Assembly: GCA_014763665.1 (NCBI GenBank)
Contig: JACXUY010000018.1
Span: 1 to 32,148 of the forward strand
Source: Gammaproteobacteria bacterium
GTDB lineage: Bacteria; Pseudomonadota; Gammaproteobacteria; Thiomicrospirales; Thiomicrospiraceae
Length of the DNA: 32,148 nt
Reading direction: 5' to 3'
The notes under the pieces are model-generated. The model ran no database searches and had not been told where the DNA came from. It saw only the letters and a program-made list of their open reading frames with translations. Positions 15,515-23,747 of this stretch are shown piece by piece. Numbering within the stretch: the stretch's first letter is position 1; every line of letters starts with the position of its first letter. Made by a program: the position numbers and the translations under genes.

Positions 15515-16531
<1,017 letters not shown>

Positions 16532-16545
16532 TCTACAGGGTTGTT

Positions 16546-17253
16546 ATGTCGGGTTGGGTGGTGTTGAATAATGGCGAGCAAGTGCATTATCAACACCCCA
16601 ACGCGAAACCGGCCTTTCCCCCCATCGAATGTTGCTTAGATGATCCCGAAGGATTAATTCAAATTGGTGGCGCTTTAACGCCTGAATGGTTACTGGCTGG
16701 CTACCGAAGGGGGATATTTCCTTGGTTTAGCGAAGGTGATCCTATCTTGTGGTGGTGTCCCAATCCTCGCACTATCCTCATTCCCAGTGAATTCAAACAA
16801 TCTCGCAGCTTGAGCAAGGTATTGCGCAATGCGGGCTTTTCCGTCACCTTCGATCAAGACTTTAGCACTGTGATTCGACTTTGTGCTCACACTCGTACCG
16901 AAACCTGGATTATGCCCAATATCATCGAAGGCTATAGCGCATTACACGAGCAAGGCTATGCTCATTCAGTCGAAGTATGGCTGGATGGGAAGTTAACTGG
17001 AGGGCTTTATGGCGTTTCGCTGGGCGGTGTTTTCTTTGGTGAGTCTATGTTTAGCCTAGTAAGTAATGCTTCCAAGGTAGCACTGGCTAGCTTGTGTCAG
17101 CGGCTCACAGACTGGCAATTTGACTTCATCGATTGCCAGTTCAGCACCGATCATTTATTGTCATTAGGTGCTAAATCCATACCAAGAGAGGACTTTTTGA
17201 TCTTGCTCAATCGTGCCTTTGATAAGCCAGATCGATTAGGTCTGTGGCATTAG
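16546..17253 (+). CDS. aat: Leucyl/phenylalanyl-tRNA--protein transferase
   Basis: Aat transfers Leu or Phe from tRNA to proteins with N-terminal Arg or Lys, marking them for ClpS/ClpAP degradation. The 235-residue length fits. Motifs include G-L-I-Q-I-G-G-A-L-T-P-E-W-L-L-A-G-Y, R-G-I-F-P-W-F, W-W-C-P-N-P-R, G-G-L-Y-G-V-S-L-G-G-V-F-F-G-E-S-M-F-S and D-C-Q-F-S-T-D-H-L-L-S-L-G-A. An AGGG element precedes the ATG. It ends 7 nt from the convergent monooxygenase gene. Confidence 0.95.
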   Translation: MSGWVVLNNGEQVHYQHPNAKPAFPPIECCLDDPEGLIQIGGALTPEWLLAGYRRGIFPWFSEGDPILWWCPNPRTILIPSEFKQSRSLSKVLRNAGFSVTFDQDFSTVIRLCAHTRTETWIMPNIIEGYSALHEQGYAHSVEVWLDGKLTGGLYGVSLGGVFFGESMFSLVSNASKVALASLCQRLTDWQFDFIDCQFSTDHLLSLGAKSIPREDFLILLNRAFDKPDRLGLWH

Positions 17254-17260
17254 GCTTTTC

Positions 17261-17611
17261 TTAAGCAAACACTGGCGCATCATAGTCTTCTGGTTCATCG
17301 CTGTAAACACAGACGTTCCATTGCTCAATTAAGCCGTCTTCAGCTTCACAATATTTAGCAAAAAACTCAACAATTTCCTTACGCTGACAATGTGCGTTAA
17401 AAGCAGCTTCATCGCGCCAAATTTCATTAAATACAATCGGAAAGCTCTGACCATCCGCATTAGGATTACTGACAAGACGCGTAACTCGGTAACTGATACA
17501 CCCATCTTCTCTCAGTGTGTTGGGTTCTAGTGCCTGCAACAGACGAAACACTTCTTTCTCTTTACCCGCTTTGGGCAAAAATTGGGCTAAACAATAAAGT
17601 TGACGAGACAT
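17261..17611 (-). CDS. Antibiotic biosynthesis monooxygenase (ABM/YgiN-like) domain protein
   Basis: This 116-residue soluble protein has the one-domain dimeric ferredoxin-like fold of ABM proteins. Typical points are the early A-Q-F-L-P-K-A-G-K-E strand, L-R-E-D-G-C-I-S-Y-R-V, the central N-E-I-W-R-D-E-A-A-F-N-A-H strand-helix and the later F-F-A-K-Y-C. Relatives such as YgiN oxidise quinols, but many members are uncharacterised. It is the last gene of the minus-strand operon that begins with tlpA, 12 nt after the 95-residue ORF, with AAGGA about 9 nt before its ATG. A quinone or thiol-linked oxidative role would fit the operon but is inference. Confidence 0.75.
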   Translation of the reverse strand: MSRQLYCLAQFLPKAGKEKEVFRLLQALEPNTLREDGCISYRVTRLVSNPNADGQSFPIVFNEIWRDEAAFNAHCQRKEIVEFFAKYCEAEDGLIEQWNVCVYSDEPEDYDAPVFA

Positions 17612-17623
17612 AGTTTACTTTCC

Positions 17624-17911
17624 TTACAAATGCTTGCGGCCTAAAATTTCCTGACTGAAGCCCAAGGCATCAGCATCATCGCCTGGAATCCATCCCAAGC
17701 AGCTGCGTACTTTCATCGACTGGTAATTACGCCAAATTGGCATAAGGGTCACAATACCCCAGAGCTTTTGCCCACAACTCCAACCCACTGGCGATGGATG
17801 CGCGGCCCACCAATCGTTGTTAACTCCGAAATGTTTGGTTTTTAGCACCAAATGAATGGCTAACTTCCAGTAGCGACGCATAAACGCAATGCGCGTTGAT
17901 AATTCATTCAT
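17624..17911 (-). CDS. Uncharacterised 95-aa protein coupled to the mini-adaptor
   Basis: I do not recognise this family. The 95-residue product is basic and Trp-rich in its first half (R-R-Y-W-K-L, N-D-W-W-A-A-H, V-G-W-S-C-G, P-I-W-R) and ends with an acidic D-D-A-D-A-L-G-F segment. There is no signal peptide, and hydrophobic stretches are too short for a sure membrane span. Its ATG overlaps the TGA of the upstream adaptor gene as TGATG (17913-17909), which strongly suggests it is translated and belongs to the same unit. It contains one Cys in S-C-G-Q and one near C-L-G-W. Confidence 0.6.
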   Translation of the reverse strand: MNELSTRIAFMRRYWKLAIHLVLKTKHFGVNNDWWAAHPSPVGWSCGQKLWGIVTLMPIWRNYQSMKVRSCLGWIPGDDADALGFSQEILGRKHL

Positions 17912-18414
17912 CAGGGTTTTGCCTCAATTTCAATCATTTTCATATTTTCGTGGAATACAGTATCGCCGAGTTGAACCCAGAGCTTAGTCACCACCCCATC
18001 GACGGGCGATACTATCTCGTAATAAGCCAATTTAGCTTGTACCTCATTCAATTCTGCACGCAAGGCATCCACCTTAGCTGTCGCTCTATCCTTGAACAAC
18101 AGCGAAGCTTCGTAGCGACGTTTTGCCGTCGCATTCTGGTCGAACAAAGCTTTTTCTGCTTCAAAATCGACTTTCGCATCTTTAAGCTCTGATTCAGCCA
18201 AGCGCAATTTGGCTTTAATTTGTGCAAGCGATGCCTGCAATGCCCGCGAATCAATGGACAATAACGCCTGGCCCTTGTTGACCTTATCACCCTCTTTAAC
18301 TGAGAGGCTGGTAATTTGTCCATCCACTAGAGCACCAATGGTTGCAGCTTGACTGGGCACAACACTGAATATACTAAAAAAGCTTGTGACGAAGAGTATT
18401 TGTTTCCAGTTCAT
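17911..18414 (-). CDS. Very short periplasmic adaptor (HlyD/RND MFP-like)
   Basis: The 167-residue protein has a signal peptide ending S-Q-A and a first lipoyl half (V-D-G-Q-I-T-S-L-S-V-K-E-G-D-K-V). A helical hairpin of about 80 residues rich in Ala, Lys and Glu follows, then the second lipoyl half (I-V-S-P-V-D-G-V-V). Typical adaptors have 300-400 residues with an added beta-barrel and membrane-proximal domain. Both are missing here, although the frame ends naturally after M-I-E-I-E. A TolC-family gene lies 3 nt upstream. AGGAG sits 8 nt before the ATG. It probably contacts the TolC-like partner with its hairpin tip. How it would meet an inner-membrane pump is unclear. Confidence 0.82.
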   Translation of the reverse strand: MNWKQILFVTSFFSIFSVVPSQAATIGALVDGQITSLSVKEGDKVNKGQALLSIDSRALQASLAQIKAKLRLAESELKDAKVDFEAEKALFDQNATAKRRYEASLLFKDRATAKVDALRAELNEVQAKLAYYEIVSPVDGVVTKLWVQLGDTVFHENMKMIEIEAKP

Positions 18415-18417
18415 GAT

Positions 18418-19692
18418 TTATTCTCCTAAAAGCTTCGCCAGGCTATCCCACAATAACGCTCTATCTCGCTGTAATTGCAGTGCTTCAAATTCGGCACGAG
18501 TCACTCTAACCAAGGAATCACCCAAATCGGTTTTACGTTCAAATTGATACTCAGTACGGCTTTTATCTAAATAGCGCTCAGCAAAATCTCCGGCCACTTT
18601 AACTTGGGCTTCTCGTACATTCAATCTTTCTATCGCTAATGCTGTTTCCAGTACCGCCTGACGTGTTTGTCGTTCTAATGCCAATCGCAAGGCTCGCTGT
18701 TTATTAAGCTCTGCTTTAGCTTTATCCACTTCGGCATCTTTCAAACCACCGTCAAAAATAGGCATCGAAATGGCTAAATCGGCTCGCCAACGTCCCTCAT
18801 AAAGGGTATCTACATGACTATGCCAACCCGCACGACCAATGGCATCAACACGTGGCATATTCAGCTTTTCAGCCGATTGTAATGACAGTTCTGCGGCTTC
18901 AATCATTAGCTGGGCAGCTTTAAGTTCGGGGTTGTTATCCAACGCCTTAGCTTGCAGGCTTTTAGGGTCGTCTAGCTTGCGTTTGACCAGTTCTGATTGC
19001 TTTGGCGGCACCAAGGTTTCGGGGAGTTTATTCGGAAATCCCAACAATTCAGCCAGTGCGGCTCGGGTATTACGCTGCTGACTTTCAGCCAGTGCCCGTC
19101 TCACGAGCGTACGTTGGTAGTGCTCTTCTAAGGCAGCAATATCGAGTTCCGACAATTTACCGACAGCGAGTTCCTCTTTAGCATTATCTAGGGCAACATA
19201 TTCAATCGCTAACTGTTCATTTTCAACCGCATAAGCAGCATCGGCTAACAATACAGCGTAAAAAGCTTTAATCACCGAATGTCGATAATCACTCAAGGCC
19301 AAACGTTCTAAGGCTTGTTCTGCTTGGTATTTCGTTTGCGCAGCAGATTGCGATAAGGCGGTACGGTTAAAATCGTAAAGTTGTTTTTGCAGCGTGACAT
19401 AGGCATTGTTAAAATCTTCTTCGTGCCCATTAAACTCACGTCTAACCACACCACCATTAAACTGCATTTTGAAACTATCCAAACTGGATAGCGCAGCCAG
19501 TTGTGCACTCGCTTGCTGACTTTTTGCCTGTGCTAACATCACGCGCGGATCTTGCTCTGCTGCAATGGCCAGTGCTGCTTCGAGCGTTAGCGGTTCGGGC
19601 AATCGTTGTTGAGCGTTTGCGGCTGACCATGCGACCTGGCTAATCGCAACCAAGCCGAGCAACCAAACAGACTGCTTCCATGTTTGGCTCAT
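18418..19692 (-). CDS. TolC-family outer-membrane efflux protein
   Basis: This 424-residue protein starts with a signal peptide (cleavage after A-N-A) and shows the repeated OEP pattern: L-T-L-E-A-A-L-A-I-A-A-E-Q-D-P-R-V in repeat 1 and L-D-N-N-P-E-L-K-A-A near residue 230 in repeat 2. Long amphipathic helices rich in Ala, Leu and Gln follow. Homologues trimerise into an outer-membrane channel with a periplasmic helical tunnel. The start at ATG 19692 has AAGGAG 8 nt upstream. A GTG at 19701, overlapping the previous stop as GTGA, lies inside that ribosome-binding site and is less likely. No inner-membrane transporter gene is in the operon. Confidence 0.88.
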   Translation of the reverse strand: MSQTWKQSVWLLGLVAISQVAWSAANAQQRLPEPLTLEAALAIAAEQDPRVMLAQAKSQQASAQLAALSSLDSFKMQFNGGVVRREFNGHEEDFNNAYVTLQKQLYDFNRTALSQSAAQTKYQAEQALERLALSDYRHSVIKAFYAVLLADAAYAVENEQLAIEYVALDNAKEELAVGKLSELDIAALEEHYQRTLVRRALAESQQRNTRAALAELLGFPNKLPETLVPPKQSELVKRKLDDPKSLQAKALDNNPELKAAQLMIEAAELSLQSAEKLNMPRVDAIGRAGWHSHVDTLYEGRWRADLAISMPIFDGGLKDAEVDKAKAELNKQRALRLALERQTRQAVLETALAIERLNVREAQVKVAGDFAERYLDKSRTEYQFERKTDLGDSLVRVTRAEFEALQLQRDRALLWDSLAKLLGE

Positions 19693-19697
19693 GAGGA

Positions 19698-20210
19698 TCA
19701 CTCCTTGGCTTGACGTTTATACCGTTCAAAACTCATTTTTTCGTATTGTTTTTCAACCACAAACTTACCCAATAGCAACATCTCTTCTTTATTGCGCGTT
19801 GCACCTGTGTAACGCGCTACTGGCTTACCCGTTAAATCAAAAAACACCATCACGGGTGTAGCACGGACACGAAAATCTTTCTCGGCAATCTCTTTCTGTT
19901 TTTTCGATTTACCATTAAAGTCAATGACTTCAACATCCCCTTCAATATCAAATAGAAAGTTTGCGAAATGTTGTTTGAAATAGGCTTGGACGTCGGGTTG
20001 TGACAAGATGGTTCTCTCCATTTTGTCACAGAAAGGACATTCATCCATCATGAAGAACATAAAAACGCCCGACTTACCCTCTTGCTTGGCGGTTTTAAGC
20101 TCTTCCTGATAATTGCCAAAGCTTTCTTGGAAAAATCCTTTCGATTTGTCGGCATAAGCGACCGAAATAGACAGACAGGCTAATAAAGCCGTGGTGAGTA
20201 ATTGCTTCAT
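19698..20210 (-). CDS. Periplasmic thioredoxin-like protein (SoxW-like)
   Basis: The 170-residue protein has a signal peptide (cleavage A-Y-A before D-K-S), a thioredoxin fold with redox motif C58-P-F-C61 and the cis-proline segment R-A-T-P-V-M-V-F-F. The M-D-E-C-P-F-C-D-K-M context resembles SoxW and other thiol reductases that keep periplasmic partners reduced. The CPFC motif and insertion before the cis-Pro strand (G-D-V-E-V-I-D-F-N-G-K) distinguish it from the TlpA protein encoded upstream. It ends at 19698, 5 nt before the chosen TolC start, in the same operon. Confidence 0.85.
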   Translation of the reverse strand: MKQLLTTALLACLSISVAYADKSKGFFQESFGNYQEELKTAKQEGKSGVFMFFMMDECPFCDKMERTILSQPDVQAYFKQHFANFLFDIEGDVEVIDFNGKSKKQKEIAEKDFRVRATPVMVFFDLTGKPVARYTGATRNKEEMLLLGKFVVEKQYEKMSFERYKRQAKE

Positions 20211-20260
20211 GATCCTTACCTCTTATCGGGTTTAATGTGTCTATGTGTCTAAGTTTATTA

Positions 20261-20734
20261 TTATTTTTTGCTGTTATCAGCTATAAACTTTTCTAAAACA
20301 GCCTGGTCAACCAATCCCGTTCTGGCGGCTACCAATTCTCCTTCAGGCGTAACCATAAAAGTCGTGGGCAAGCCTTTTAAGGTACCAAAAGGTGTACCAC
20401 TGCCCAGCTTCCCTTTGCTACGTACAACAGGATAGTTAACGAAGCGATCGTCGGCAAATTTTTTCACTTCTGCGACCGGGTCTTCTTGATGATTGACCCC
20501 TAACACCACCGCATCCTTCTTAGCATGTACTTCATGAAAAGAAACTAGCTCAGGAATTTCTTTGATGCATGGCGGACACCAAGTTGCCCAATAGTTAACC
20601 ACCACCCACTTGCCTCTAAAGTCGGATAGTTTGACTGTTTTACCGTTCAGGTCAACAAAATCAGCATCAATAGGTGCAGCCACCACGGTTGACGAGAGCA
20701 AAAGAGAAGCTGCCACCAATAAAGAACGCAACAT
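20261..20734 (-). CDS. TlpA/ResA-family thiol-disulfide oxidoreductase
   Basis: This 157-residue periplasmic protein has a signal peptide (V-V-A-A) and the TlpA-type core: L-S-D-F-R-G-K-W-V-V-V-N-Y-W-A-T-W, active site C53-P-P-C56, then L-P-T-T-F-M-V with the cis-Pro. Relatives reduce apocytochrome c or other periplasmic disulfides using electrons from DsbD/CcdA. No ccm gene is nearby. It heads the six-gene operon. AGGAG lies 6 nt before the ATG, and a fair promoter is present upstream. Confidence 0.88.
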   Translation of the reverse strand: MLRSLLVAASLLLSSTVVAAPIDADFVDLNGKTVKLSDFRGKWVVVNYWATWCPPCIKEIPELVSFHEVHAKKDAVVLGVNHQEDPVAEVKKFADDRFVNYPVVRSKGKLGSGTPFGTLKGLPTTFMVTPEGELVAARTGLVDQAVLEKFIADNSKK

Positions 20735-20798: not shown

Positions 20799-21494
20799 TT
20801 AAGACTGTAACAACAGCTTTTTTGCAAAAGGTAAGGTAATGGGATGTTTTAATGTCATGGAACCATGATCTAAATAGGCTAAGACATGCATCAGCTGTCC
20901 AATATCCTCTGCGTAAAGCTTCATCAGCCAGTTAGTTACCTCTTTGCTTAATTGAATGCTACGCTGCTGGGCCCGTTCGAGCAGCAGTTGTCGTTTTTCG
21001 GCATCATTACTCAAGGCAACCAGTGAGAAATTCAATCCTAACAGCTGGTCATAAGCTGCTGCGGTTCGTTGTACTAATAGAATCATACCACCTGAATCAC
21101 GCATTAAACTCACCAGTTGCTCAATGGCGGTCCTCCATGCAGGCTTAACCAATAAGCGATCTGCATCATCAATACAGATTAAGGAAAGTTGCTCCATGCC
21201 CTGTAAACGCTCTGGGCGCAAACCTGCACTATCCTTAGCTGAAATGAAAGCACATGGCAGACCTTGCTGACTGTGTTGCGAAAGAATGGCCTGGGCCAAA
21301 TGTGTCTTTCCGGACGAAGCTTCACCCGTCAGATAAGAAACGGTTGGACTGGCAGCTTGTAACCATGCGGTCAATTGTTGCAGTGTTTTTGCATTTTCAC
21401 CGACAATAAAACTGTCCAAAGTCGGCCACAATGGCGCAGATAAGGTAAGTACGCCCTGAACTAATTGAATCGGAGCACTCTGTTGTTCTGCCAT
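20799..21494 (-). CDS. hda: DnaA regulatory inactivator Hda
   Basis: Hda is a DnaA-like AAA+ protein that, with the DNA-loaded sliding clamp, triggers hydrolysis of DnaA-ATP after initiation. The 231-residue length and lack of a DNA-binding C-terminal domain fit Hda rather than DnaA. Features are F-I-V-G-E-N, the P-loop G57-E-A-S-S-G-K-T-H, the Walker B I-C-I-D-D-A-D and the sensor region R-Q-L-L-L-E-R-A-Q-Q-R. The tail is L-P-F-A-K-K-L-L. The usual N-terminal clamp-binding hexapeptide of the Q-L-x-L-P-L type is not obvious. The gene is downstream of nadE on the same strand, separated by a terminator. Confidence 0.87.
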   Translation of the reverse strand: MAEQQSAPIQLVQGVLTLSAPLWPTLDSFIVGENAKTLQQLTAWLQAASPTVSYLTGEASSGKTHLAQAILSQHSQQGLPCAFISAKDSAGLRPERLQGMEQLSLICIDDADRLLVKPAWRTAIEQLVSLMRDSGGMILLVQRTAAAYDQLLGLNFSLVALSNDAEKRQLLLERAQQRSIQLSKEVTNWLMKLYAEDIGQLMHVLAYLDHGSMTLKHPITLPFAKKLLLQS

Positions 21495-21615: not shown

Positions 21616-23253
21616 TTAGCCCCTCCAACCATTGGTGATGGGCATACGCCAATCTTTATCGAAACTGCGTGCGGTGATTTTAATGCCTGGTGCTGCTTGC
21701 CGACGCTTGTACTCACTCAGTCGCATCAAACGCATACTGCGATTCAGTAGCGCATCATCCTTGGGCAAGTGAGCTGCTTTTGCCAATTGCTCGATGGACT
21801 GACCTTGCTGCATACGCTGCTCAATCCAAGCGTCTAGCGTTTCGTAGGGCGGCAAACTGTCTTGGTCTGTCTGATCGGGACGTAATTCAGCCGATGGTGG
21901 ACGGTCAATGACACGCTGCGGGATCACGCTATTTTGTTGGTTGCGCCAATTCGCAAGGGCATATACCCAGGTCTTAGGCACATCTTTTAAGGGCGCGAAA
22001 CCACCATTCATATCACCATACAGGGTGGCATAACCCATGGCCGACTCACTTTTATTACTGGTGGTGAGCAACAAGGCGCCCGTTTTATTCGACAAAGCCA
22101 TTAACAACAATCCACGAATACGCGCCTGTAAGTTTTCTTCTGTCACATCAGCGGCTAAGCCGGCAAAGCGCTCAGCTAATGTCGCTTCAACTGCTGCATA
22201 GGTAGGTGCAACGGGCAATTGTGTATAACGTACACCCAATTGGGTCGCTTGTTCGGCAGCATCCCATTGACTGATGTCACTGGTGTAAGTAAAGGGCATC
22301 ATTACCGCTTCAACCGAATCGCTGCCCAAGGCATCGACCGCTAAAGCCAGCACCAGCGCCGAATCCACCCCCCCCGACAATCCCAAAAGCACCCGTTTAA
22401 AGCCATTTTTACGCACATAATCAGCCAATCCGAGTGTCAGCATCGACCAGATGGCCGCCCAATCGGTGCTAGACGGTGGTGCTTGTGTTAACCATGACGT
22501 CCCTTCGCAGGTGAAGCCCGAATCAGACCAAGTGACTTGCGCCTGTATCGACTGAGCAATGGGCAAATAACGACAACCCTGAGCATCGAAAACCAAGGAG
22601 CGACCATCGAACACCAGCCCATCCTGTCCACCCACTTGATTGACATAAACGATGGGCAATTGCGTTTCAGCAAAGCGTTGTGTCAGCACAGTATGGCGCT
22701 GATGCCATTTACCCACCTCATAGGGCGAAGCGTGCAAACTCAGCAATACTTCGGCGCCCGCCTGTTTGGCTAAGAACGCTGGCTCTGGCTGCCATAAGTC
22801 CTCGCACACTAATAGACCTAAGCGCACACCCTTCCATTCAAGAACGCTGGCTTGCTTACCCGCGCTAAAATAGCGTTGTTCATCGAACACACCATAATTG
22901 GGTAAGGCTTGCTTGGCATAGCGCGCCAAAATCTTGCTTTGCCCTAACGCGATGGCTTCATTGGTTAAACGCCCTTGTGCATCACGTCCGACCGACCCCA
23001 CCAGCCAGAGCAAATCATCATCGGTTTCAGCCGCTAACTGCGTTAACAGAGCCTCGCACTGACCGATAAATGCGGGAAACAACAATAAATCTTCGGGTGG
23101 ATAACCGGTCAGCGATAGCTCAGGAAAAACAATCACCTGCGCACCAGCCAACTGGGCTGTTTTCGCCGCTTGGCGCATTAACTCAGCATTACCCACTAAA
23201 TCACCGACCAAAGGATTCAGCTGGGCTAAGGTAATTCTTAATTGAGCCATCAT
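21616..23253 (-). CDS. nadE: Glutamine-dependent NAD+ synthetase
   Basis: This 545-residue enzyme makes NAD+ from deamido-NAD+ using glutamine. The N-terminal nitrilase-fold glutaminase has the catalytic triad E45 (F-P-E-L-S-L-T-G-Y), K114 (A-K-Q-A-L-P-N-Y-G) and C150 (L-V-C-E-D-L-W). The C-terminal synthetase has the PP-loop G-L-S-G-G-V-D-S-A and later S-N-K-S-E. The start is uncertain by a few codons. An ATG at 23265 overlaps the upstream gene. I chose 23253 because the restored upstream frame ends at 23255 and A-Q-L-R-I-T-L-A-Q-L-N follows directly. A tandem ATG lies at 23250. Confidence 0.94.
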   Translation of the reverse strand: MMAQLRITLAQLNPLVGDLVGNAELMRQAAKTAQLAGAQVIVFPELSLTGYPPEDLLLFPAFIGQCEALLTQLAAETDDDLLWLVGSVGRDAQGRLTNEAIALGQSKILARYAKQALPNYGVFDEQRYFSAGKQASVLEWKGVRLGLLVCEDLWQPEPAFLAKQAGAEVLLSLHASPYEVGKWHQRHTVLTQRFAETQLPIVYVNQVGGQDGLVFDGRSLVFDAQGCRYLPIAQSIQAQVTWSDSGFTCEGTSWLTQAPPSSTDWAAIWSMLTLGLADYVRKNGFKRVLLGLSGGVDSALVLALAVDALGSDSVEAVMMPFTYTSDISQWDAAEQATQLGVRYTQLPVAPTYAAVEATLAERFAGLAADVTEENLQARIRGLLLMALSNKTGALLLTTSNKSESAMGYATLYGDMNGGFAPLKDVPKTWVYALANWRNQQNSVIPQRVIDRPPSAELRPDQTDQDSLPPYETLDAWIEQRMQQGQSIEQLAKAAHLPKDDALLNRSMRLMRLSEYKRRQAAPGIKITARSFDKDWRMPITNGWRG

Positions 23254-23254
23254 A

Positions 23255-23699
23255 TTAGAAGCCATAAACCAAGGTTAAGGCCGTTAAGGTGTCTAGGTTT
23301 TCTCGTCCCACCAATAGCTACTGTTAGTTTCATTTGATAATGGTAACCACTGAATAAGTCTTTGTCGTAGCGTAAATTACCGAAACCATAATAAACCTCT
23401 GAAAAAGTGCGTGGTGCCTGACCATCGAGCAAATAGCGTTCGCGCGTATTAACGCCTTCATTTTGTGCCGAAACCGCGCTTAAATTTAAGCTGTGCTCCC
23501 AATCTGCCTGTAAATAATTGATACCCAACTTGGCATTCAAACTACTGCTGTTGCTATTACTGGCGGTACTGTTATAACCCAATTCGCCTTCACCATTAAA
23601 CTCTCCTGATTTGGGCGATTCCGTCGCGTAAGCACTAGCCGAAAAAATACTGAAAACAGCCAGCAAAAACCTTGGGTAGCTCAACTTAGCACTCATCAT
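23255..23699 (-). pseudogene. DUF481 (YdiY-like) outer-membrane protein, internally deleted and frameshifted
   Basis: The frame starts with a good signal peptide (M-S-A-K-L, cleavage A-Y-A) after an AGGA box. It then matches DUF481 with G-E-G-E-L-G-Y-N-S-T, N-A-K-L, R-E-R-Y-L-L and F-G-N-L-R-Y-D-K-D-L-F-S-G-Y-H-Y-Q. Full family members run about 240 residues as beta-barrels ending in L-V-Y-x-F. Here the match stops at H-Y-Q and the open frame ends in non-barrel sequence at 23250. In the +1 frame the last 17 codons read G-R-E-N-L-D-T-L-T-A-L-T-L-V-Y-G-F, a proper barrel end, stopping at 23255, one base before nadE. So about 100 residues are missing and one frameshift lies near 23302-23311. An assembly error could explain the shift but not the deletion. 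Confidence 0.75.
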
Positions 23700-23747
23700 C
23701 GTTCCTAATGTCATTCTATTGTGAGGCTATTATAAAGCAGCTCTGCA

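Follow-up and report, generated by a model that had tools for sequence, protein, structure and literature searches.

A trx2-tolC-adaptor gene module without a linked pump is associated with SoxB-bearing genomes in Gammaproteobacteria

Our analysis of a six-gene operon in a member of the order Thiomicrospirales indicates that three of its genes, encoding a SoxW-like periplasmic thioredoxin-like protein (trx2), an outer-membrane channel of the TolC family (tolC) and a short adaptor protein (adaptor), belong to a conserved module which has no linked pump and is tied to genomes that carry SoxB, a conclusion we consider well supported. No description of this triad was found in the open-access literature. 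The closest accounts found there concern a HlyD/TolC set that is up-regulated in Sulfurovum grown on S0, which was interpreted as polysaccharide secretion (PMC10045233), and genes of thioredoxin-like and TolC/Cus type near thiocyanate dehydrogenase (PMC6504805).

Layout of the locus and architecture of the adaptor

The first-pass annotation of this DNA described six genes on one strand with gaps of 50 nt or less, and this holds: six open reading frames lie intact on the minus strand at positions 17261-20734 of the window, the whole 32,148-nt stretch that was analyzed, with intergenic distances of -4 to 50 nt. The first gene, tlpA (20261..20734), encodes a periplasmic thiol:disulfide protein of the TlpA/ResA type, assigned from profile searches by its AhpC-TSA/Redoxin domain (ResA-like; AhpC-TSA E=1e-21), a CPPC motif and a signal peptide. 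It is followed after 50 nt by trx2 (19698..20210), the first core gene, whose product combines an N-terminal signal-like stretch with a Thioredoxin_2 fold (E=1e-19) bearing CPFC, as expected of an exported SoxW-type thioredoxin; CPFC and TP (cis-Pro) are invariant in a 26-row alignment. The second core gene, tolC (18418..19701), overlaps trx2 by 4 nt and encodes a TolC-family outer-membrane efflux channel with two OEP domains (E=6e-35). The third, the adaptor gene (17911..18414), begins 3 nt further on and encodes 167 aa with matches to Biotin_lipoyl_2/HlyD and TIGR01730. It overlaps by 1 nt with u95 (17624..17911), a 95-aa orphan that forms a conserved flank outside the triad, and 12 nt beyond this lies a gene for an ABM-domain protein (17261..17611; E=4e-12) that is a local neighbor only. 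Upstream of tlpA, at a distance of 64 nt on the same strand, is its conserved neighbor, an hda-type DnaA-related gene (20799..21494; Hda_lid E=2.5e-16).

Scans of the region for promoters and terminators returned signals no better than those from shuffled sequences. On the plus strand, trxB (thioredoxin reductase) and aat (15587-17253) converge on the 3' end of the operon, and in L023 and L091, too, they occur close to the locus. Elsewhere in the window, a minus-strand DUF481 gene of 154 aa (23250-23714) matches only positions 2-87 of the 210 in its profile and looks truncated, its 3' end overlapping the start of nadE.

The adaptor had initially been described as truncated-looking. Instead, its length is conserved at about 165-190 aa throughout the order, and the gene encodes a complete short protein, neither truncated nor damaged, with a confidently predicted lipoyl and hairpin fold. 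The AlphaFold2 model (pLDDT 88.9) contains two strand clusters and two long helices arranged as a hairpin (57-93 and 95-132), and the closest geometric matches in Foldseek are the cores of AcrA (2f1m, TMq 0.80, rmsd 1.6 over 145 columns). The protein consists of a signal peptide of the cleavable type, a lipoyl domain and an alpha-hairpin, and has no anchor domain. In profile searches it covers only positions 20-157 of the 322 in TIGR01730, and the adaptor of G170 (L161) is likewise short, while the four long adaptors scanned from the class reach positions 228-244. The membrane-proximal end of the profile is unmatched in all adaptors scanned, and in the order the beta-barrel part is unmatched as well; going by the established domain order of adaptors of this kind, we take these stretches to be the membrane-proximal domain and the beta-barrel. 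The RLS-type tip for docking to TolC (R-x3-L-x6-S) is present in most adaptors of the class and degenerate in Thiomicrospirales.

The absence of an inner-membrane pump to accompany the channel and adaptor, which the first-pass annotation had also remarked on, is borne out by the neighborhoods. In the window, neither the operon itself nor the DNA next to it contains a pump gene, and among 40 loci from the class a screen for RND and MacB-type ABC pumps, with six RND proteins and MacB-type ABC/permease queries, gave no hit nearer than 4.6 kb, so that an adjacent pump of these kinds is not a routine feature of the loci. It is nonetheless conceivable, if rather unlikely, that the triad belongs to a conventional tripartite exporter with the gene for its inner-membrane pump at another site, the thioredoxins being unrelated neighbors or folding helpers for exported proteins. 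The TolC family and the adaptor fold do match those of tripartite pumps, the genome itself encodes about eight RND genes along with several other TolC-like proteins, and in a subset of Thiomicrorhabdus (L025-L028) a MacA/ABC/permease set is located a few kb downstream on the opposite strand. However, that set includes a full-length adaptor of its own and is missing at most loci of the order, and the tolC-adaptor pair stays with the thioredoxin gene across the families sampled. The earlier suggestion that the system borrows a pump, here an RND pump, is also unlikely, given that no membrane-proximal domain is present in the class adaptors examined and that the adaptors of the order are without the beta-barrel as well.

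The triad and its backbone in the order and the class

The window's group comprises Thiomicrospira, Thiomicrorhabdus, Hydrogenovibrio and Sulfurivirga. Within the order, trx2 is present in 51 of 63 genomes (one copy being a fragment) and u95 in 60 of 63, and neighborhood maps show that the arrangement tlpA-trx2-tolC-adaptor-u95 recurs across the order and is thus not due to chance; hda lies upstream of tlpA in most of these loci. Two states of the locus are seen. In the first, hda-tlpA-[trx2-tolC-adaptor]-u95 is contiguous; in the second, found at 13 loci in one set of maps, hda-tlpA-u95 is contiguous without the triad and tlpA directly adjoins u95. Moreover, in Hydrogenovibrio-type genomes (L033-L036, L038, L047, L051) the triad has moved behind ectB, ectC, an aspartokinase gene and a gene for a TPR protein, the ectoine genes being named putatively from their sequences. 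Given the two states and this relocation, trx2, tolC and adaptor constitute one block, while tlpA and u95, which stay in place when the triad is lost or moved, belong to a separate backbone. The ABM gene was found in its position only in G000 and G001; in G002 and G003 the contig breaks off shortly after u95. Since trx2 is missing from roughly one fifth of the genomes in the order, the majority of these being SoxB-bearing, the module is dispensable.

The u95 product has no match in Pfam or NCBIfam and no convincing relative in the PDB, and its AlphaFold2 model is of low confidence (61.5). It carries many invariant residues (FGVNN-WW, PS, RN-QS-VRS-GW) with no known family or confident fold, and is nearly specific to the order. 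A single divergent relative, with approximately 40% identity, comes from outside the named genera (L092:7953-8240); it is encoded by an uncultured gammaproteobacterium next to a dGTPase-like gene, with no triad nearby. An acylphosphatase of the same size, often encoded at the same place in other loci of the class, was considered as a relative of u95 and rejected, as it belongs to PF00708.

A sample of 369 genomes from across the class yielded strong trx2 profile matches in 97, at a presence cut-off (E<1e-35) that was chosen after the scores were known. Forty trx2 loci were fetched, of which one (L130) ends at a contig edge, and in 35 of the 39 evaluable loci the order trx2-tolC-adaptor is kept. 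In 34 of these the adaptor is located 1.2-1.5 kb after trx2 with tolC between them; this number includes L142, where an overlong frame starts nearer, and in the 35th locus (L148) an overlong frame had hidden the adaptor. The gene order that the first-pass annotation proposed to trace across gammaproteobacteria is therefore conserved for these three genes, but the six do not form a single unit, since the ABM gene is local and tlpA and u95 are separable. A tree places 63 triad TolC proteins in one clade (support 0.98), apart from paralogues encoded by the genome of the window. In a 299-genome sample of the phylum trx2 is rare, being found in 4 genomes, and in L183, from a genome of the same phylum that is not marked as belonging to the class, it adjoins a TolC gene.

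We also considered whether the genes are linked without joint function, trx2 belonging to sulfur oxidation and tolC and adaptor being passengers by synteny near hda and tlpA. Across the class tlpA is often upstream of the triad, hda lies within the fetched stretch at 15 of the 40 loci, and part of the class retains the hda-tlpA neighborhood, which would favor passengers, as would four loci with trx2 in the absence of tolC-adaptor (L158, L162-L164). Against this, the triad relocates as a block with its order intact, both to the ectoine operon of Hydrogenovibrio and, in families where it is found away from hda, to other sites (L129, L132, L150-L153), and we judge the passenger explanation to be distinctly unlikely.

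Association with SoxB and a possible role in sulfur oxidation

SoxB is encoded by 150 of the same 369 class genomes, and trx2 is nearly confined to genomes that carry it: SoxB is found in 90 of 97 genomes with trx2 and in 60 of 272 without (odds ratio 45, p=2e-36, a comparison that ignores phylogeny and takes trx2 as a proxy for the triad). Counted by family, the figures are 49 of 51 with trx2 versus 28 of 127 without. Inside the order, comparison of cassette presence with SoxB gave no usable signal, SoxB being nearly universal there. A link between trx2 and loss of SoxCD was considered and rejected, as SoxC showed no association with trx2 (16/90 versus 14/60, p=0.41).

The trx2 gene of the window lies outside any sox cluster. 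G228 (L163) carries a more distant trx2 homologue in a SoxB locus, flanked by genes for a Porin_O_P protein of the outer membrane and a Sulf_transp protein (PF04143). In this stretch (L163:6623-9836) the SoxW-like thioredoxin gene and Sulf_transp are followed by genes for ankyrin-repeat and MACPF proteins; frames of 380, 759 and 1036 aa had raised the candidacy of L163 as a pump-bearing version of the module, which was rejected when they were identified as the Sulf_transp, ankyrin and MACPF proteins.

The distribution of cysteines bears on how the thioredoxin might act. The first-pass annotation envisaged redox-controlled export, and in its strict form the thioredoxin would use thiol-disulfide exchange to open or close either TolC or the adaptor. 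The tight packing of the genes, with overlaps of 4 and 1 nt, is compatible with such a switch. However, beyond residue 30 the adaptor is free of cysteine in all 30 members from the order (and in 23 of 28 from the class), and TolC is cysteine-free in 22 of 31 order members and 23 of 31 class members. Judged from these sequences, the thioredoxin is unlikely to act as a thiol switch for either protein, since the adaptors of the order and most of the TolC proteins offer no cysteine, and we regard the switch as largely refuted and very improbable. It is more likely that the thioredoxin acts on cargo or on another periplasmic protein.

Such cargo might be exported protein, if the locus were a device for disulfide reduction or oxidative folding in which the periplasmic thioredoxins act on proteins, such as a secreted peptide, that leave through TolC. 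Two CxxC proteins with signal peptides do precede tolC, and the genome encodes DsbD, a possible source of reductant. Yet the locus showed no linked gene for a peptidase-ABC protein or for a conserved cysteine-rich peptide that is secreted, and trx2 tracks SoxB, so this device appears improbable.

We favor, tentatively and as something short of a probable conclusion, the reading that trx2-tolC-adaptor, often placed after tlpA, provides a pump-independent passage from the periplasm to the outside which serves periplasmic sulfur oxidation, the last part being proposed in view of the near-complete restriction of the module to SoxB genomes. The functional unit of this passage would be the triad, with tlpA often in front. 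The adaptor hairpins may dock onto the dedicated TolC and keep the channel open, and the architecture and distribution of the module suggest that the passage would be independent of a pump. The SoxW-like thioredoxin would handle cargo or sulfur chemistry rather than the channel, perhaps with electrons from DsbD and possibly TlpA, and sulfur intermediates (polysulfide, sulfane sulfur or thiol-bound sulfur) could cross the outer membrane downhill. A narrower proposal, which we put forward as a speculative and on balance unlikely one, is that the module is a dedicated pump-less sulfur conduit of the outer membrane, in which an adaptor-opened TolC and a SoxW-like thioredoxin let sulfane sulfur or polysulfide travel between the Sox machinery in the periplasm and the cell exterior. 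Such a conduit, if real, would account for the formation of zero-valent sulfur outside the cell or for access to it.

TolC and its adaptors are understood as components of pump-driven exporters. A conserved version that has no linked pump, whose adaptor is without the parts that dock to one and which is associated with a thioredoxin and with sulfur oxidation, would reveal a different use of TolC, and would offer a testable candidate for the movement of poorly soluble sulfur over the outer membrane in sulfur oxidizers, which is a long-standing question. The dispensability of the module in some relatives makes natural comparisons possible.

Comparison with known systems

A comparison of the triad with the tripartite systems AcrAB-TolC, MacAB-TolC and EmrAB-TolC shows both shared and divergent features. 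Like these, the triad comprises a TolC-family channel and an adaptor with lipoyl and alpha-hairpin domains, and the RLS tip motif of tripartite efflux systems is present in most class adaptors, though degenerate in those of Thiomicrospirales. Unlike these, the triad is linked to a thioredoxin gene in place of a pump, and its adaptor lacks the membrane-proximal domain and, in the order, also the beta-barrel. The combination of TolC with an adaptor of the HlyD superfamily is likewise shared with type I secretion (HlyBD-TolC), from which the triad differs in having no linked ABC transporter, no membrane-anchored HlyD and no linked substrate. The tlpA gene upstream of the triad resembles TlpA/ResA in its CPPC motif and signal peptide, but this flanking gene is separable and remains where the triad is absent. 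Finally, trx2 is comparable to SoxW, the thioredoxin of Sox gene clusters, and is putatively of the same type: the trx2 product is exported, of the Thioredoxin_2 type and bears a CxxC motif, the gene is nearly confined to SoxB genomes, and one distant homologue resides in a SoxB locus (L163). Thioredoxins of the SoxW type receive their electrons from SoxV/CcdA/DsbD, and the DsbD of this genome would be a candidate donor for trx2. Unlike SoxW, trx2 is here not located in a sox cluster and is linked instead to tolC-adaptor.
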